This document shows positions 6,622 through 36,179 of a stretch of DNA of 42,036 nucleotides, in pieces. The position numbers and the translations under genes are program-made. The notes beneath the pieces were generated by a model that ran no database searches, was not told the DNA's origin, and worked only from the letters and a program-made list of their open reading frames with translations. Position 1 is the stretch's first letter; every line of letters starts with the position of its first letter. The DNA is from a virus, in the IMG/VR virus record IMGVR_UViG_3300036886_000515, positions 1 to 42,036 of that record. The stretch is one strand, 5' to 3'.

Positions 6622-6703
6622 CGGGCTTCGCCTCGCCGCTTCTCATCCCACCCAGCCGCTCGCTTACAGAGGCCCTTTCCTTTTCTCTTCAGTGTAGCGA
6701 CGT

Positions 6704-6781
6704 TTCCGTCCCGTCAAGGTACTTCGACTCAATTGCGGCAGAGCCGCAACACAGTGGACGATCCACCTTGACTGAACGGAA
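6704..6781 (+). ncRNA. Candidate three-way-junction leader RNA
   Basis: The plus strand can form a closing stem TTCCGT/ACGGAA (6704-6709, 6776-6781), an inner stem GTCAAG/CTTGAC (6713-6718, 6767-6772), and two hairpins inside it: TTGCGGC-AGA-GCCGCAA (6733-6749) and GTGGA-CGA-TCCAC (6754-6766). It ends 56 bases before the small gene at 6838 and just before the AAAGGTCGAA motif. The fold is by eye; no covariation was tested. Confidence 0.45.
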
Positions 6782-6811
6782 CCCCTTTGTCGCCCCCCTG
6801 TGAGCATAAGG

Positions 6812-9336: not shown

Positions 9337-9470
9337 ATGAGCTGCCCCTTTCAAGTCAGCTATCTTTAGAATAGGAAATGTGAGCTAACACGCAAGGGGC
9401 TTGACAGGTGATTGTGCGTAGTGATGTAGCGGTATAGATAAAGTGGGCTATATAGAGCGGTTGGCCGGAC

Positions 9471-9498
9471 TGGACAGAAGCTTACAGTAAGCTATCAT
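9471..9498 (+). promoter_or_regulatory. Early rightward promoter with an operator-like palindrome in the spacer
   Basis: TGGACA (9471-9476) and TATCAT (9493-9498) are each one base from consensus and are separated by 16 bases. The palindrome CTTACaGTAAG (9481-9491) fills the spacer, where a bound repressor would block polymerase. The ATG at 9505 follows the -10 box by 6 bases, so the first gene would be read from a leaderless mRNA. A separate TTGACA at 9401-9406 has no good -10 partner. Confidence 0.65.
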
Positions 9499-9504
9499 TA
9501 TGGT

Positions 9505-9618
9505 ATGACGATTGACCGAAAGAAACTCTGTAAGAAATGCCGCGCGGCAATCAAACGGGCGGACGCAGAGTACATGCGGAAATATCGCCAGAATAAAAAG
9601 GTCGAAACCAAAACATAA
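9505..9618 (+). CDS. 37-residue basic protein with CxxC, first gene of early operon
   Basis: 37 codons; Lys/Arg-rich, with one CKKC pair that could bind zinc or be redox active. Its last codons (KVETKT) are encoded by the AAAGGTCGAAACC leader of the next gene, so the regulatory motif and the end of this gene share DNA. The position of the ATG immediately after a strong -10 box supports expression from a leaderless message. Function unknown. Confidence 0.5.
   Translation: MTIDRKKLCKKCRAAIKRADAEYMRKYRQNKKVETKT
9597..9606 (+). promoter_or_regulatory. AAAGGTCGAA leader motif, copy 2
   Basis: Exact copy, 29 bases before the ATG at 9626 and inside the last codons of the gene at 9505. Confidence 0.55.
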
Positions 9619-9625
9619 CTAGTAC

Positions 9626-9802
9626 ATGAAGAATTACTTTGTGCAGATCACCGTTGATGACCCGTATCCGAAGAAGTTTGAGATCACGGGAACGGCGGCG
9701 AGCGCAGAGGTTGCGGTAAAGCGTGCGCTTCAGAAGTTCCGCAAGGAGTTTTGGGCGCGGCGTCCTCTCACCGAGTTCCGAGTGTACGTTAAGAAGATAT
9801 AG
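9626..9802 (+). CDS. 58-residue unknown phage protein
   Basis: Reads MKNYFVQITVDDPYPKKF and continues with an amphipathic helix (AEVAVKRALQKFRKEF) and a final strand. This beta-alpha-beta shape resembles the small protein at 6838, whose leader has the same motif, so the two may be distant paralogues. There is no SD. The stop TAG is followed 2 bases later by the ATG of the next gene, a coupling pattern repeated in this phage. Confidence 0.6.
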   Translation: MKNYFVQITVDDPYPKKFEITGTAASAEVAVKRALQKFRKEFWARRPLTEFRVYVKKI

Positions 9803-9804
9803 CA

Positions 9805-9951
9805 ATGCTTAACGAACACCTTCTCTGGACCCGCATTATTCAGAACGACGGCCGGCTTCAAAAGGAACCGACGTTCCTCGGAGCCAGCCTCCTCTTCGTA
9901 GCAATCTGCGCCGGATTCTATGCGCTCATCTTCCTCGGCGCCGCACTCTAG
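9805..9951 (+). CDS. 48-residue single-pass membrane protein
   Basis: The first 23 residues are polar and the last 25 form one membrane helix (ASLLFVAICAGFYALIFLGA). Such tiny membrane proteins in early phage operons can act on host membrane processes, but nothing here identifies a target. Start by TAG-CA-ATG coupling to the preceding gene. It ends CTC TAG, as do four other genes in this element. Confidence 0.55.
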   Translation: MLNEHLLWTRIIQNDGRLQKEPTFLGASLLFVAICAGFYALIFLGAAL

Positions 9952-9961
9952 AAACGGTTGC

Positions 9962-10040
9962 ATTCGGGAGGGAAAAGGGTACATGACCCAGCGAGTCTAT
10001 CGGCAACGGTTTGAACTCGCACCCTCCCGAATTATTCGGG
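9962..10040 (+). ncRNA. Candidate structured regulatory RNA with alternative folds
   Basis: An 11-bp stem ATTCGGGAGGG/CCCTCCCGAAT (9962-9972, 10022-10032) encloses two hairpins, GGGT-ACATG-ACCC (9977-9989) and GCGAGT/ACTCGC with an 18-base loop (9991-10020). The 3' strand of the long stem is also the 5' strand of a second hairpin, CCCGAA-TTA-TTCGGG (10026-10040), so the two cannot form together. It lies 23 bases before the nuclease gene at 10064. This is riboswitch- or attenuator-like geometry, drawn by eye. Confidence 0.5.
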
Positions 10041-10051
10041 AAACAAATTAA
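9983..10051 (+). CDS. Possible 22-codon upstream ORF (leader peptide)
   Basis: ATG 9983 sits in a hairpin loop of the structured region and reads 22 codons to TAA at 10051, ending 12 bases before the nuclease start. GGGAGGG and AAGGG lie just upstream. Translation through it would melt the long stem and free the alternative hairpin, so it could be a leader peptide controlling the nuclease gene. Arg is frequent (5 of 22). Low confidence as a coding gene. Confidence 0.25.
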   Translation: MTQRVYRQRFELAPSRIIRETN

Positions 10052-10063
10052 CCAAACTTCAAC

Positions 10064-10900
10064 ATGAAATCAGCAGTAATCGGCCAGTTTCTCAAAGACC
10101 CTTCAGTAGTATTCGACAAGGAAAAGCACACCTACAAGACGGCCGGCGGCGAGCTTTACACCGGCTGCACGACGATCGCCGGGGCGTGGGATAAAAGTTA
10201 TTTCCTCGGCCCCTGGCACGCGAAGGAGATGGCCCTCGCCATTCTCTCCCGTCCGTTCGACGAAGTAGCCAAGCTCACCCCACCGGAGTTCGAGAAGTTC
10301 ATCACGAATGCAAAGGGTGCGGCCAAGCGCAAGAGTGAGGCGGCGGCGAACACGGGCACGCTCGCTCACGATTGGATAGCGAGTTTCATCTCTTCCCGGA
10401 TTGACCCCAACCTCGACCTCATCCCCACGCCGGATGATGACGAGGCAAACAACGCCATCGAGGCGTTCGTCACGTGGCAACCGACAGAAAGAATCACATG
10501 GCTCGCAAGCGAGGAGCTTGTGTGCTCCGATGAATACCGAATCGCAGGCACGCTTGATGCGATTGCCTCATTCGACGGCATCCCGTTCATCGTGGACTTC
10601 AAGACGAGCGGCCAGCTCTCTCCGAGCTACCTGCTCCAGTGCGCGGGCTACGACATCATGCTCCGCGAGATGGGCTTCGCGGTCGCAGGCTACAAGATTA
10701 TCCGCATCCCGAAGGACGGCACCGCGGCCGAAACTCTCACCATCACCGACGCAAAGGACATGCAGTTCTTCCGCGAAACATTCCTCAAGCAGAGAGAAGC
10801 GCATCGCTTTTACGTGTACACGACCTCGAAGTTCACTGATATGGCGACCGGCAAGATGAGAGTCGATTTGCCGGAGTTAAAGGTCGAAGAAACAAATTAA
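10064..10900 (+). CDS. PD-(D/E)XK exonuclease of the RecB/Cas4-like family
   Basis: 278 residues with the full RecB-family nuclease signature: H102 (GTLAHDW), D165 (AGTLDAI), D178 and K180 (FIVDFKTS) and the Q192-x3-Y196 motif (QCAGY). Such enzymes resect double-stranded DNA ends during phage recombination or replication. The following 157-residue protein may be its single-strand DNA partner. The start lacks an SD and follows an A/C-rich leader (ACAAATTAACCAAACTTCAAC) and the structured RNA at 9962-10040. The C-terminal KVEETN is encoded by the leader motif of the next gene. Confidence 0.85.
   Translation: MKSAVIGQFLKDPSVVFDKEKHTYKTAGGELYTGCTTIAGAWDKSYFLGPWHAKEMALAILSRPFDEVAKLTPPEFEKFITNAKGAAKRKSEAAANTGTLAHDWIASFISSRIDPNLDLIPTPDDDEANNAIEAFVTWQPTERITWLASEELVCSDEYRIAGTLDAIASFDGIPFIVDFKTSGQLSPSYLLQCAGYDIMLREMGFAVAGYKIIRIPKDGTAAETLTITDAKDMQFFRETFLKQREAHRFYVYTTSKFTDMATGKMRVDLPELKVEETN
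10879..10888 (+). promoter_or_regulatory. AAAGGTCGAA leader motif, copy 3
   Basis: Exact copy within the final codons of the exonuclease gene, 35 bases before the ATG at 10914. Confidence 0.55.
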
Positions 10901-10913
10901 TCACAATAAACAC

Positions 10914-11387
10914 ATGGCAGATTACGAAAAGCAGGAGTTCATTTCGGGAAAGTGGGCCGACAAGGCCGAGCTTTATGAAAAGCGGGTGGGCAAAGCGAGG
11001 ATACTGAGCGAGACGAATCCAGAAACGAGTTCGTTCAAGAACGAGGACGGGTCGCCGCAAATACAGCACGTCTGCAAGGCTCAATTTGCTGGCTACACCG
11101 AACCGCTCAAGATTTCTTTAAACCGCGCGACCATCAATGCCCTCGTTGATGCTTTTGGCAAGAGCTCGAAGGATTGGCAGGGACAGGTTTTGGGAGTGGA
11201 GGTTGATAAGCTCCCCGGCAAGAAATTCCCTCTCTATCTCATTCCTCAAGGATATGAGCGCGTCGAGGACGAGAACGGTTATTCCGTGATCCAGAAGAAG
11301 GGCGCAAAGGCCGAACCGGCGGGGAAAACCCCGATAGACGCTGTGAACGGTAGCCTTGATACCGACCTCAGCAACATCCCCTTCTAA
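10914..11387 (+). CDS. Unknown early protein, candidate ssDNA-binding partner of the exonuclease
   Basis: 157 residues; charged N-terminus (MADYEKQEFISGKWADKAEL), then a beta-rich centre (ISLNRATINALVDAFG, GQVLGVEVDKLPGKKFPLYLIPQGYERV) and a polar tail ending SNIPF. The acidic, Phe-terminated tail is reminiscent of single-strand DNA-binding proteins, whose C-terminal ...PF tip recruits partners. With the nuclease immediately upstream this suggests an exonuclease plus SSB-like pair. No family was recognised with certainty, so the function is an inference from tail and context. Confidence 0.65.
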   Translation: MADYEKQEFISGKWADKAELYEKRVGKARILSETNPETSSFKNEDGSPQIQHVCKAQFAGYTEPLKISLNRATINALVDAFGKSSKDWQGQVLGVEVDKLPGKKFPLYLIPQGYERVEDENGYSVIQKKGAKAEPAGKTPIDAVNGSLDTDLSNIPF

Positions 11388-17914: not shown

Positions 17915-18224
17915 CGCCCTCTTAGAGAAGTTGAAGCTGAAGAGCCCCGACGAGCTCACGACCGCCGAACGCGAGACCTATCGGCAATGGTCCGAAGTAC
18001 TCGCGAAGCAGGATGTCTCCATTGACGACCTGAAGAAGATTCTCCCCAGAGAGCTTGAACGCGCGCACGTTGAATTGCGAAAGTTCGAGAACTCGAAGGA
18101 GAAGGACATGTTCTACAAGGCGTATGCCGAGCTGTGCGAGAACATTTCGAAGATCATCATTGCTCCCCAGCAACAGCGCGAGCACCTTCGCTCCTTCCTG
18201 AAAAATAAATTCGGTATTGAATAA
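17907..18224 (+). CDS. Small helical virion or assembly protein
   Basis: 105 residues, almost entirely helical and charged (LEKLKLKSPDELTTAERETY, then VELRKFENSKEKDMFYKAYA). Lies between portal and scaffold, where podoviruses often encode small assembly factors. Start by 8-base overlap with the portal gene. Not recognised. Confidence 0.6.
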   Translation: MLDALLEKLKLKSPDELTTAERETYRQWSEVLAKQDVSIDDLKKILPRELERAHVELRKFENSKEKDMFYKAYAELCENISKIIIAPQQQREHLRSFLKNKFGIE

Positions 18225-18232
18225 AGGTCGGT
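18223..18232 (+). promoter_or_regulatory. AAAGGTCGGT leader motif variant
   Basis: Shares AAAGGTCG with the exact copies; begins in the stop codon region of the gene ending at 18224 and lies 30 bases before the ATG at 18253. Confidence 0.4.
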
Positions 18233-18252
18233 AAATACAATCACAAGAACCA

Positions 18253-18459
18253 ATGGAGCAAACATGGCAGGAAAAGCTCAATGAGATCCTCATGAAGGAA
18301 CCGGCGGCGCTCACCCCCGGAGATATCGAGTTCCTCCGCGCTCGACGTTCCTACCTGAATGCGGATCAACTGAGCCAGTACGCGGAGGTCCTCAGCGTGG
18401 AATCCGTAAACGTGGAACCCGAAAAGGTCGAGAAACCAGCAAAGAAACCCAGCAAATAA
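18253..18459 (+). CDS. Small helical protein before the scaffold
   Basis: 68 residues with a helical N-terminus (TWQEKLNEILMKEPAALT) and a Lys/Pro-rich tail. The tail (EKVEKPAKKPSK) is encoded by a leader-motif variant. Function unknown; it may be a capsid assembly accessory. Confidence 0.5.
   Translation: MEQTWQEKLNEILMKEPAALTPGDIEFLRARRSYLNADQLSQYAEVLSVESVNVEPEKVEKPAKKPSK
18423..18432 (+). promoter_or_regulatory. AAAGGTCGAG leader motif variant
   Basis: One mismatch to the exact motif, inside the end of the preceding gene and 40 bases before the ATG at 18463. Confidence 0.4.
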
Positions 18460-22288: not shown

Positions 22289-24796
22289 ATGTCCGTCGTC
22301 TATAGAACAAGTTCTGCCGGAGGAGGCACAAGCGGTACCGGTAACCGGACCTCTACCATCTCCGCTGTCGCGGGCGACCTGCTTCTTGTTTTCGTAAAGT
22401 GGTCCGGCAACGCGGCGACCAACCCGACGTGCACGGACAACCAGTCCGGCACTTATTCTCTCGTCCTCACCGCGCTCAACAACGCAAGCGCGGACATAAT
22501 GGCGATCTTCGTCCGCAACCAGACGGTCGCTTCCACGGCGACCATCACCGTCGCTCCGGTCGTCGGTTCGGGCACCAACACGGCCGGTGAGATCGTTGTC
22601 GTTGCGGGCAGCGGAGCTGCAATCTTCGGCGCGAGCGCGATTCGCGGTTCCGGCAAGCAGGAGAACCAGACGACGGGAGTTCCCACTCCCGTTTTGTCTG
22701 CCGCCGCTTTGACGGGGAATATGACGATTCAGGCGGCTGGTTCCACCACAACTACTGGGTCTGTTCCTAACGCGAGCTGGACGGAGCGTCAAAACGTCAG
22801 CCAAATCACACCTACGACGGTGATTGAAGTGGCCACGAGAGACAGCGGATTCACGGGAACGTCCGCCGCGTACGTATCCATCGCGTCAGCCGTATGGTGC
22901 TCGGCGATTTTAGAAATTGACGGCAGGATTACTTCCTCGCAGACACAGACAGGCAAAGCACGCATCACTATTTCGACCCAGCAAACACAGACAGGAAAAG
23001 TAAGAATATCCAAAACCACTCCGCAGACCCAGACGGGTAAAGCGCGCATCACCGCGACCCCCAGCCAAACTCAGACGGGGAAAATAAGAATCACCGTTGA
23101 TCCCACCCAAACGCAAACAGGGAAGGCCAGCATCATCAAGAAAGTCTTCCCCGTGGATACGGGCGGCACGCTTCTTACGGGCTTGGTTGCATATTACAAA
23201 CTTGAAGATGCCACTGAATATTACGTCGGCGGCGGCACTTACGATTTAACGAACGAGAATACGGTCGCCTTTAACGCCGGTCTTGTAAATAACGCCGCTG
23301 ACGGGGGAAGCGGGAACACCAACAAGGCTCTCAACTTGGCGAACGGCCTCGGCATCAATGGAGGAAACTTCTCCATGTCGATGTGGATTAAATTGGCGAG
23401 CACCATATCGAGCATCACGACGTTCGGAGGTCAGGCATCAAACGGAGGAAGCAATGTCGGGTATGAGTTTGAATACGACGGCACGACACTCACCTTCAAC
23501 CGTTTCCAAAACGGCACCAACGATTTTAACGCGACAGAAACGGTTGCGCTAAGCACAGGCACTTGGTATCACCTCGTCGGGACTTATGACGGGACGACTC
23601 TCAAACTTTATCGGAACAACGTTGCCAAGACGCCATTAACGACCAGCGGGAATGGCGGTTCCGCCCTTACCCAGAAGTTCGTCTTATTCAAGAACCCGAC
23701 AGCCAATGTCCGCTATTTCAGCGGCAAGATTGATGAAGTCGGCGTATGGAGCAAGGCCCTCACCACCACTGAGATCGCCGACCTCTACAACGGCGGGGCA
23801 GGGCAGACGATGGGCTTAGCGGCCATCACAAGCACCCAGACGCAGACCGGAAAATCAAGAATCACGGGCACCACATCCAACACCCAGACGGGGAAAGCGA
23901 GCGTCAAGGGCACGACCTCACAGACACAAACGGGCAAAGCACGGCTCACCCTCACCTCTCCCCAGACCACGACAGGAAAGGCACGCATCACAAAATCAAC
24001 CAGCCAGACGCAAGCCGGCCAGTCACGGCTCACGGTTACGACCCCACAAACACTCACGGGAAAGACACGCATCACCAAATCCCAAACTCAGACGCAGACG
24101 GGGCTTTCGCGGATTACGAAGACCAGCTCCCAGACCATTACGGGCAAGGCGAGAGTTAGTGTAACGACCAGTCAGACACAAACAGGCAAAGCCAACCTCT
24201 CACTACCTCGCACGCAGACAGGCCTCGCCCGCATCACAAAGACACAAACGCAGACGCAAGCCGGAAAATCCCGCGTCACGAAGACACAGAGTCAGACCCA
24301 GGCGGGGCAATCCCGAATCACGGAAACGACCGCGCAGACCCAAACGGGGAAAGCCAACATCCTTACCGGCCAGACAAGTACCCAGACGCAGACCGGTCAA
24401 GCTCGCATCACGGCGACCACCTCGCGCACCCAAACCGGACAGGCACGCATCGCGGAGGCAGGAACACAGACCCAGACGGGGAAAGCGCGGCTCACCATTT
24501 CGACCCAGCAATCCGCGACCGGCAGATCCCGAATTGCGGTAACCACTCCACAAACGCAGACCGGAACAGGAAAGATAGTTTTCGTGAGGACGCAGACCCA
24601 GACCGGCAAAGCACGGATTCTCTTAGTGAAGCAACAGACGCTTACGGGCAAGGCGAGGGTCAAGGTCTTCCCCGCTTTCACCTCGAAATACTCCGCGCGG
24701 GGCACGGCCTTCACGAGCAAGCTCACTCCGCAAGGCACGCAATTCACAGACCGCTATGGACAACAGGGCATAAGGTTCTATCCTAAATACATATAG
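22289..24796 (+). CDS. Tail or surface protein with LamG-like domain and TQTGKARI repeats
   Basis: 835 residues. Residues 1-215 are a beta-rich head; 217-285 hold five repeats of about 13 residues around TQTGKARI; about 296-507 are a concanavalin-like LamG/laminin-G domain (LVAYYKLEDA, MWIKLAS, WYHLVGTYDGTTLKLYRNN, FSGKIDEVGVWSKALT) that would bind sugars; about 515-790 hold roughly 20 further repeats; the end is aromatic and basic. The layout suggests a receptor-binding fibre with the lectin domain set within a repetitive shaft. No SD; starts 4 bases after the preceding stop. Confidence 0.8.
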   Translation: MSVVYRTSSAGGGTSGTGNRTSTISAVAGDLLLVFVKWSGNAATNPTCTDNQSGTYSLVLTALNNASADIMAIFVRNQTVASTATITVAPVVGSGTNTAGEIVVVAGSGAAIFGASAIRGSGKQENQTTGVPTPVLSAAALTGNMTIQAAGSTTTTGSVPNASWTERQNVSQITPTTVIEVATRDSGFTGTSAAYVSIASAVWCSAILEIDGRITSSQTQTGKARITISTQQTQTGKVRISKTTPQTQTGKARITATPSQTQTGKIRITVDPTQTQTGKASIIKKVFPVDTGGTLLTGLVAYYKLEDATEYYVGGGTYDLTNENTVAFNAGLVNNAADGGSGNTNKALNLANGLGINGGNFSMSMWIKLASTISSITTFGGQASNGGSNVGYEFEYDGTTLTFNRFQNGTNDFNATETVALSTGTWYHLVGTYDGTTLKLYRNNVAKTPLTTSGNGGSALTQKFVLFKNPTANVRYFSGKIDEVGVWSKALTTTEIADLYNGGAGQTMGLAAITSTQTQTGKSRITGTTSNTQTGKASVKGTTSQTQTGKARLTLTSPQTTTGKARITKSTSQTQAGQSRLTVTTPQTLTGKTRITKSQTQTQTGLSRITKTSSQTITGKARVSVTTSQTQTGKANLSLPRTQTGLARITKTQTQTQAGKSRVTKTQSQTQAGQSRITETTAQTQTGKANILTGQTSTQTQTGQARITATTSRTQTGQARIAEAGTQTQTGKARLTISTQQSATGRSRIAVTTPQTQTGTGKIVFVRTQTQTGKARILLVKQQTLTGKARVKVFPAFTSKYSARGTAFTSKLTPQGTQFTDRYGQQGIRFYPKYI
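22936..24666 (+). repeat. About 25 degenerate tandem coding repeats (TQTGKARI)
   Basis: Units of roughly 33-45 bases encode variants of TQTGKARI followed by 3-6 variable residues; the LamG domain interrupts the array after five units. Codon choice differs between units, so the array is old or diverges quickly; length changes by recombination remain possible. Confidence 0.8.
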
Positions 24797-35920: not shown

Positions 35921-36115
35921 ATGAGCCGCACCAACCGCCACCACCTCACGCCCCGCAGCCGTAACGATCAGCCATTCCACGGCAACCACCAACAGAACAT
36001 TCTCCACATTGACGTGGAAAAGCACGAGAAATGGCACGCTCTCTGGGGCACTCGCACCTTGGAAGAGGTGCTTGCACTCCTCTCACGGCTCGCCCGCGCC
36101 AAGCGCAGGCAATGA
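35921..36115 (+). CDS. Small HHxTPRSR-type protein (HNH-related)
   Basis: 64 residues starting MSRTNRHHLTPRSRNDQPFH and ending in a basic helix; HIDVEKHEKWHALWG in the middle. This short family with HHLxPRS and H-x2-WH motifs is found near HNH proteins and may bind zinc or nucleic acid. ATG 35921 is preceded by GGAG at 7 bases; an upstream in-frame ATG at 35891 is less likely. Confidence 0.6.
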   Translation: MSRTNRHHLTPRSRNDQPFHGNHQQNILHIDVEKHEKWHALWGTRTLEEVLALLSRLARAKRRQ

Positions 36116-36119
36116 GCCG

Positions 36120-36150
36120 CCCCCGATCAACCAATCGGGGGATTCTTTCA
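36120..36150 (+). terminator. Weak intrinsic terminator
   Basis: CCCCCGAT (36120-36127) pairs with ATCGGGGG (36134-36141), six-base loop, followed by ATTCTTTC. The T run is broken, so efficiency is probably modest. Confidence 0.5.
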
Positions 36151-36179
36151 CCGCAAACGATAGGAGGTAAAATACCGCC

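Follow-up and report, generated by a model that had tools for sequence, protein, structure and literature searches.

The DNA analysed here (the window) is an IMG/VR virus record of 42,036 bases, in which phage genes for a terminase, a major head protein, a primase, and a PD-(D/E)XK exonuclease were identified. Directly before the exonuclease gene lies a strongly folded segment, and the question is what this RNA is and on what it acts. A first-pass annotation had read it as a riboswitch-like or attenuator leader of the RecB-family nuclease, sensing either a ligand or translation, with a 22-codon ORF running through it. The features of the locus are listed in Table 1. A promoter-like site approximately 450 bases upstream is a possible start of the early + strand operon, and the element lies near the beginning of that operon. 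The 22-codon ORF, which most relatives lack, is probably incidental, and the small protein encoded downstream of the exonuclease gene, which showed no PHROG or Pfam match, is by inference SSB-like. Elsewhere in the window (22940-24611), an array of 42-base repeats was found inside an 835-aa ORF with a laminin-G-like domain.

Table 1. Features of the early region around the element; X, b, X', and b' are the four pairing segments in 5' to 3' order.
Feature	Position	Strand	Remark
Sigma-70-like promoter match, TGGACA-16-TATCAT	9471..9498	+	Match to consensus only; chance expectation 0.6
Small membrane-type protein ORF, 48 aa	9805..9951	+	TAG at 9949-9951 directly 5' of element
Segment X (1), AAACGGTTGC	9952..9961	+	Starts right after stop codon; can pair with X'
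Segment b (2), 5' strand of stem	9962..9972	+	Pairs with b'
Junction arm GGGT-ACATG-ACCC	9977..9989	+	Counterpart only in L091
22-codon ORF crossing the element	9983..10051	+	Without counterpart in most relatives
Junction arm GCGAG...CTCGC, loop carrying X'	9991..10020	+	Same stem in L091
Segment X' (3), GCAACGGTTT	10003..10012	+	Nine pairs with X; mismatch at position 6
Segment b' (4), 3' strand of stem	10022..10032	+	Pairs with b
Hairpin TCCCGAA-TTA-TTCGGGA (earlier proposed alternative, extended)	10025..10041	+	Compatible with X.X'; common to L091 and L005 only
A/U-rich leader of next gene	10033..10063	+	Largely unpaired in both states
PD-(D/E)XK (RecB-like) exonuclease gene	10064..10900	+	phrog_298, 4.6e-35
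Small protein, acidic C-terminus ending IPF	10914..11387	+	Used for finding relatives

In the window, a perfect 11-bp stem (ATTCGGGAGGG at 9962-9972 paired with CCCTCCCGAAT at 10022-10032) encloses a three-way junction of 71 bases. The stem, the junction, the alternative hairpin, and the 22-codon ORF were all found where the first-pass annotation had placed them, and its statement that the structure is not a tRNA agrees with ARAGORN, which recognised no cloverleaf. The minimum free energy (MFE) of the element was -36.3 kcal/mol, compared with -21.5 ± 3.0 kcal/mol in shuffled sequences (z = -4.86; 0 of 200 shuffles as good), and its fold ranks fourth among 1399 + strand windows; perfect 11-bp stems occur 0-1 times per shuffled window. 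Other strong folds were also identified in the window. The strongest on the + strand (1861-1980, z about -7) lies upstream of and extends into an ORF that begins at 1936 and has a GGAG-type ribosome-binding site, and a perfect 18-bp inverted repeat (CGACTCGGGTATCTTCCG; 2767-2844) with a 42-nt loop and a z of -5.9 is located just 5' of a HerA/FtsK-like ATPase ORF. Strong - strand folds were found at 6680-6790, in a gap between + strand genes, and at 36040-36160.

Relatives were found by searches with the terminase and the small SSB-like protein; a direct search with the nuclease yielded one distant contig only. BLAST searches of cultured phages with the locus DNA and the family proteins returned no element-bearing relatives, and the terminase and capsid matches were distant. 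A homologous element was identified in 12 related contigs (L005, L007, L085, L087, L088, L089, L090, L091, L092, L093, L095, and L114, which was the last to be noticed, by visual reading of its sequence). It is carried on the coding strand in all of them and resides among the small genes of the same early cluster, usually 3' of a small membrane protein gene, with homologues of the 48-aa ORF preceding it in most. The upstream stop codon is located 7-12 bases 5' of b in 11 of 13 members, another small structure intervening in L087 and L114, and this adjacency may reflect only the compactness of the genomes. The distance from the end of b' to the next ATG is 22-31 bases (11 in L088). Read-through of the stop codon, which the spacer and hairpin behind it had brought to mind, was rejected because an in-frame extension into the next gene was present only in L007 among the members read by eye. 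A separate short element, TTGTGCGG...ACAA, occurs 3' of the small membrane protein gene in L087 (3470-3500), L007 (4317-4355), and L114 (3142-3175). HNH-type ORFs in L088 (4018-4554) and L123 (3912-4529) appear to interrupt the exonuclease gene, as an insertion or intron, and contig L086 opens (1-180) with a tandem array of units resembling GTTCGCACGCGGAGCTTCGGGGAA.

The stems of the members share little sequence. The three-way junction is retained only in L091; the elements of L093 and L114 are branched otherwise, and the remaining relatives contain simple or bulged hairpins. Because the junction is confined to the window and L091, there is no conserved aptamer core, and the consistent set of downstream genes that ligand sensing calls for is likewise missing. 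An equivalent of the 22-codon ORF is also present only in L091, so that the family has no conserved leader ORF of the kind that a leader-peptide attenuator would need. The gene next to the element varies, being the exonuclease in the window and various small proteins in the relatives, and tblastn detected no relative of the nuclease in L005, L007, L089-L093, or L095, all of which carry the element. The variable downstream gene and the lack of the nuclease in most relatives show that the element is not a riboswitch or leader of the nuclease. The first-pass annotation had named loss of the stems while the gene is kept as an outcome that would speak against it; the reverse was found, the stems being kept while the gene changed.

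In each member, the sequence immediately 5' of the stem (ten bases) can pair with the apical loop in a second helix, X.X', giving the segment order X-b-X'-b'. The core pairs of X and X' are GTTGC/GCAAC in the window and L091, GATGC/GCATC in L005, CTCTC/GAGAG in L089, L090, and L095, TGGAC/GTCCA in L092, TTGAC/GTCAA in L085, CTTGC/GCAAG in L007, TCATC/GATGA in L087, GTTAC/GTAAC in L088, and GTGC/GCAC in L093, and L114 pairs through one G.U. The element of L088 was first found as a hairpin and then fitted the X/X' rule. When the 5-base X core was compared with its own loop, all five positions matched in eight of nine independent types, whereas none of 120 cross-pairings reached 5/5; in a permutation test, the observed sum was reached once in 200,000. 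The helix extends over ten bases and contains one mismatch, which falls on position 6 in 11 of 12 sequences. The exception is L093, with the mismatch at position 5, and L114 likewise has it there. Hairpins in these genomes do not in general have flanks complementary to their loops (45 of 807, versus 38 and 30 for control flanks). As a fair negative control, 44 chance matches from viral and genome collections, obtained with a pattern unable to match the family, showed no X.X'/b.b' pairing.

A strict descriptor was applied to 634 kb (the window and 16 related records), in which approximately three chance matches are expected over both strands. It recovered one homologous element per genome in ten genomes and missed those of L005, L093, and L114 because of bulges or mismatches. 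Chance matches to loose descriptors were too numerous, and a pattern scan from the apical loop recovered only L005, its other matches being unrelated or due to chance.

Covariation was scored on a gapless alignment of 12 distinct sequences, divided into blocks of X (10), b (9), X' (10), and b' (9). With both helices included, 92.1% of the cells were paired, compared with 60.0 ± 2.4% in shuffles, and both-sided changes were found in 15 of 19 pairs. The covariation score was 0.838 versus 0.184 ± 0.032 in shuffled alignments and at most 0.194 in slid versions, although the blocks were cut by hand from related sequences and X' was placed by complementarity, so that the comparison with slid versions is partly biased by selection. 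Neither the cross-pairing test nor the descriptor scan depends on this alignment. X.X' alone scored 0.726 versus 0.183, and its outer pairs (positions 7, 9, and 10) covary as well. In b.b', the sequence of b is free whereas the strength of the stem is maintained, and the off-pairs are mostly G.U on the + strand, as expected of a sense RNA. The covariation check recommended in the first-pass annotation thus came out strongly positive among the homologues.

The two helices interleave with no linker between X and b, 0-1 base between X' and b' in the simple members, and 4-7 bases between b and X'. Complete X.X' and complete b.b' therefore cannot coexist, and a standard H-type pseudoknot of the full helices was rejected on these steric grounds; by geometric reasoning on a coaxial model, b' could be reached from X' only across the full extent of both helices. 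A shortened pseudoknot, made up of the 5-bp X core and the upper part of b.b', could form. These results define an RNA segment with two mutually exclusive helices, both of which are conserved by covariation. That the folds exclude one another had been correctly anticipated, but the better-supported alternative to the stem is the pairing of the 5' flank with the apical loop and not the hairpin at 10025-10041. The latter hardly forms at equilibrium (pair probability 4e-5; -32.0 kcal/mol for the best fold that includes it, versus -39.5 kcal/mol), and it would accompany X.X' only in the window, L091, and L005 (3 of 13 genomes), where its GC core is unchanged.

In the full RNA at equilibrium, b.b' is favoured over X.X' by 7-18 kcal/mol, and X.X' can thus be at most transient unless it is stabilised. 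When MFE folds of growing transcripts were calculated, X.X' was the best fold of window transcripts ending at 10008-10020 and b.b' that of transcripts from about 10026 onwards; among 12 members, nine had X.X' or a close variant as the best fold of their truncated RNA. In the full RNA with b.b' formed, X' lies open in the loop and X remains unpaired. The region of the start codon is unpaired in both folds, and neither fold hides a ribosome-binding site.

The reading that best accounts for these observations, to which a probability of about one half is assigned, is that of an RNA element carried by the early polycistronic mRNA, acting in cis and folding sequentially, in which X.X' is the transient and b.b' the final structure. 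During transcription, the X.X' hairpin would form once X' emerges and would give way to b.b', which is far more stable, as soon as b' has been made. If X were held by a ribosome finishing the upstream ORF, or by a protein, b.b' would form at once, and anything stabilising X.X' would delay it. A ribosome at the upstream stop codon would cover approximately the length of X and would be an attractive setter of the switch, with the reservation that the adjacency is not universal. The existence and covariation of both helices, the MFE folding order, the single copy per genome where the element was found, and the independence from the downstream gene are computed results; we infer that the alternation itself constitutes the function and works in cis on the early transcript, and that its timing as transcription proceeds is decisive. 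The expression switch of the first-pass annotation survives as a switch-like RNA, with a different partner and scope, whereas ligand and leader peptide have no support. Metastable hairpins that form co-transcriptionally are known in type I toxin mRNAs such as aapA3 of Helicobacter pylori (PMC6733600). There, transient hairpins hide the Shine-Dalgarno sequence and an antisense RNA exists, whereas no ribosome-binding site is hidden here and the helices are interleaved without a linker.

No covariance model of Rfam 15 matched the element over its gathering threshold, the best permissive match being Flavi_NKV_xrRNA at chance level (E = 9.6), and the element is absent from Rfam. A second conserved structured RNA, also without an Rfam match, was seen right 3' of the SSB gene in L007 (5887-5960), L005 (5795-5870), L086 (2545-2615), L092 (5450-5525), and L095 (3845-3920), with variants in L090 and L093; none was seen in the window. 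It consists of a closing stem P1, a hairpin P2 with the conserved loop AATAAGC(R)CGGGGCAATA, and a variable P3, and a loop CGGGG is complementary to CCCCG in the 3' flank.

Among the other explanations, a hairpin for intercistronic mRNA processing or stability is somewhat unlikely but fits several observations. In such a case, b.b' would be cut by a ribonuclease or protect from one, and X.X' would merely keep b from mispairing; the hairpins between T7 early genes have a comparable ribonuclease-linked role. The position between early genes, whatever these genes are, is consistent with this explanation, as are the thermodynamic dominance of b.b' and a stem whose strength is kept while the sequence of b is free. 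However, processing leaves unexplained why ten flanking bases covary with the loop around a fixed mismatch and why a single such element is present per genome despite many gene junctions.

An antitermination or attenuation RNA of the early operon, with a role like that of the HK022 put RNA, which acts in cis to render RNA polymerase resistant to terminators, is unlikely. The nascent RNA would in this case act on RNA polymerase or on Rho, the C-rich b' being exposed in the X.X' state. The put RNA consists of two stem-loops over approximately 70 nt, and putR is located approximately 270 nt past its start site (PMC9378689). Like put, the element would act in cis from a site early in a phage early operon, approximately 450 bases past a promoter-like site and independent of its neighbours, and it is present in one copy per genome. 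However, put comprises two side-by-side stem-loops in two copies per genome, whereas most members of the present family form a single hairpin with a competing interleaved one; a put RNA by structure was rejected because two adjacent stem-loops are absent from most members. An intrinsic terminator was rejected as well, no terminator-like site or U-tract after b' being found in 9340-10100. Attenuators that pair an intrinsic terminator with an antiterminator resemble the element in having two exclusive alternative hairpins chosen during transcription but differ from it in the U-tract, which b' lacks.

Related genomes contain other interleaved X-b-X'-b' repeats in which b.b' is followed by a T-run, and these fit such attenuators better. 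They were found on the reverse strand in L176 (G003; 1985-2065), L194 (G010; 18190-18265), and L196 (G011; 18100-18180), with a weaker case in L180 (G005). They covary among genomes and are attenuator-like terminators with a competing hairpin, and their occurrence counts in favour of a put-like role of the present element.

An intermolecular contact or a partial pseudoknot is quite improbable. X of one RNA, or X with b partly open, would pair with the loop X' and produce a dimer or a compact knot, for which X' is accessible in its loop and X is available once b.b' has formed; a 5-bp core with a shortened stem is, by reasoning, sterically possible. A short pseudoknot would not need the covarying outer pairs of X.X' (positions 7, 9, and 10), and the simple members leave it no linker. 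A role of the interleaved inverted repeats at the DNA level, as a replication origin or protein-binding site for example, is very unlikely. Although there is one per genome, near genes for primase, exonuclease, and SSB-like proteins, their orientation is fixed with transcription, G.U pairs occur in the stems, and no clear minimum or maximum of GC skew was seen at the element.

Highly improbable is an autogenous operator of the SSB-like protein. In bacteriophage T4, the gene 32 translational operator is a pseudoknot directly before its own ssb gene (PMC535899). The two share a folded RNA followed by an unpaired leader rich in UAAA/UUAA on a replication-gene transcript, here in an operon encoding an SSB-like protein. 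However, the T4 structure is a short pseudoknot, whereas the full helices of the present element are exclusive, and an operator of this type was rejected because an exonuclease gene or various small genes, and not ssb, follow the element. The SSB-like gene is the next gene in none of the relatives and has its own leader, and similar A/U-rich leaders precede other genes in these phages. A ligand riboswitch or leader-peptide attenuator of the RecB-like nuclease, which the strong fold directly 5' of the gene in this genome had suggested, is scarcely tenable and largely refuted by the relatives, in which the element is kept where the nuclease is absent and junction and ORF are not conserved.

No compared system (the hairpins of type I toxin mRNAs, put, and the T4 gene 32 operator) matches all of the tested features. 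The sequentially folding element may tentatively be regarded as a possible new class of phage early-operon RNA switch, consisting of two interleaved hairpins without linkers, of which the transient one contains a conserved mismatch. Such a switch would be set during transcription, for example by a ribosome finishing the preceding ORF, and would control the rest of the early transcript independently of a ligand, a U-tract, or any particular downstream gene. It is difficult to demonstrate from sequence that alternative RNA folds are conserved, because as a rule the final fold alone leaves a trace. In the present phage family, covariation is seen in both of two helices that are unable to coexist in full, which makes selection on a folding alternative directly testable with short, portable sequences. 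The element would be an operon-level RNA that Rfam lacks, and the searches revealed no cultured relative of the phages that carry it.
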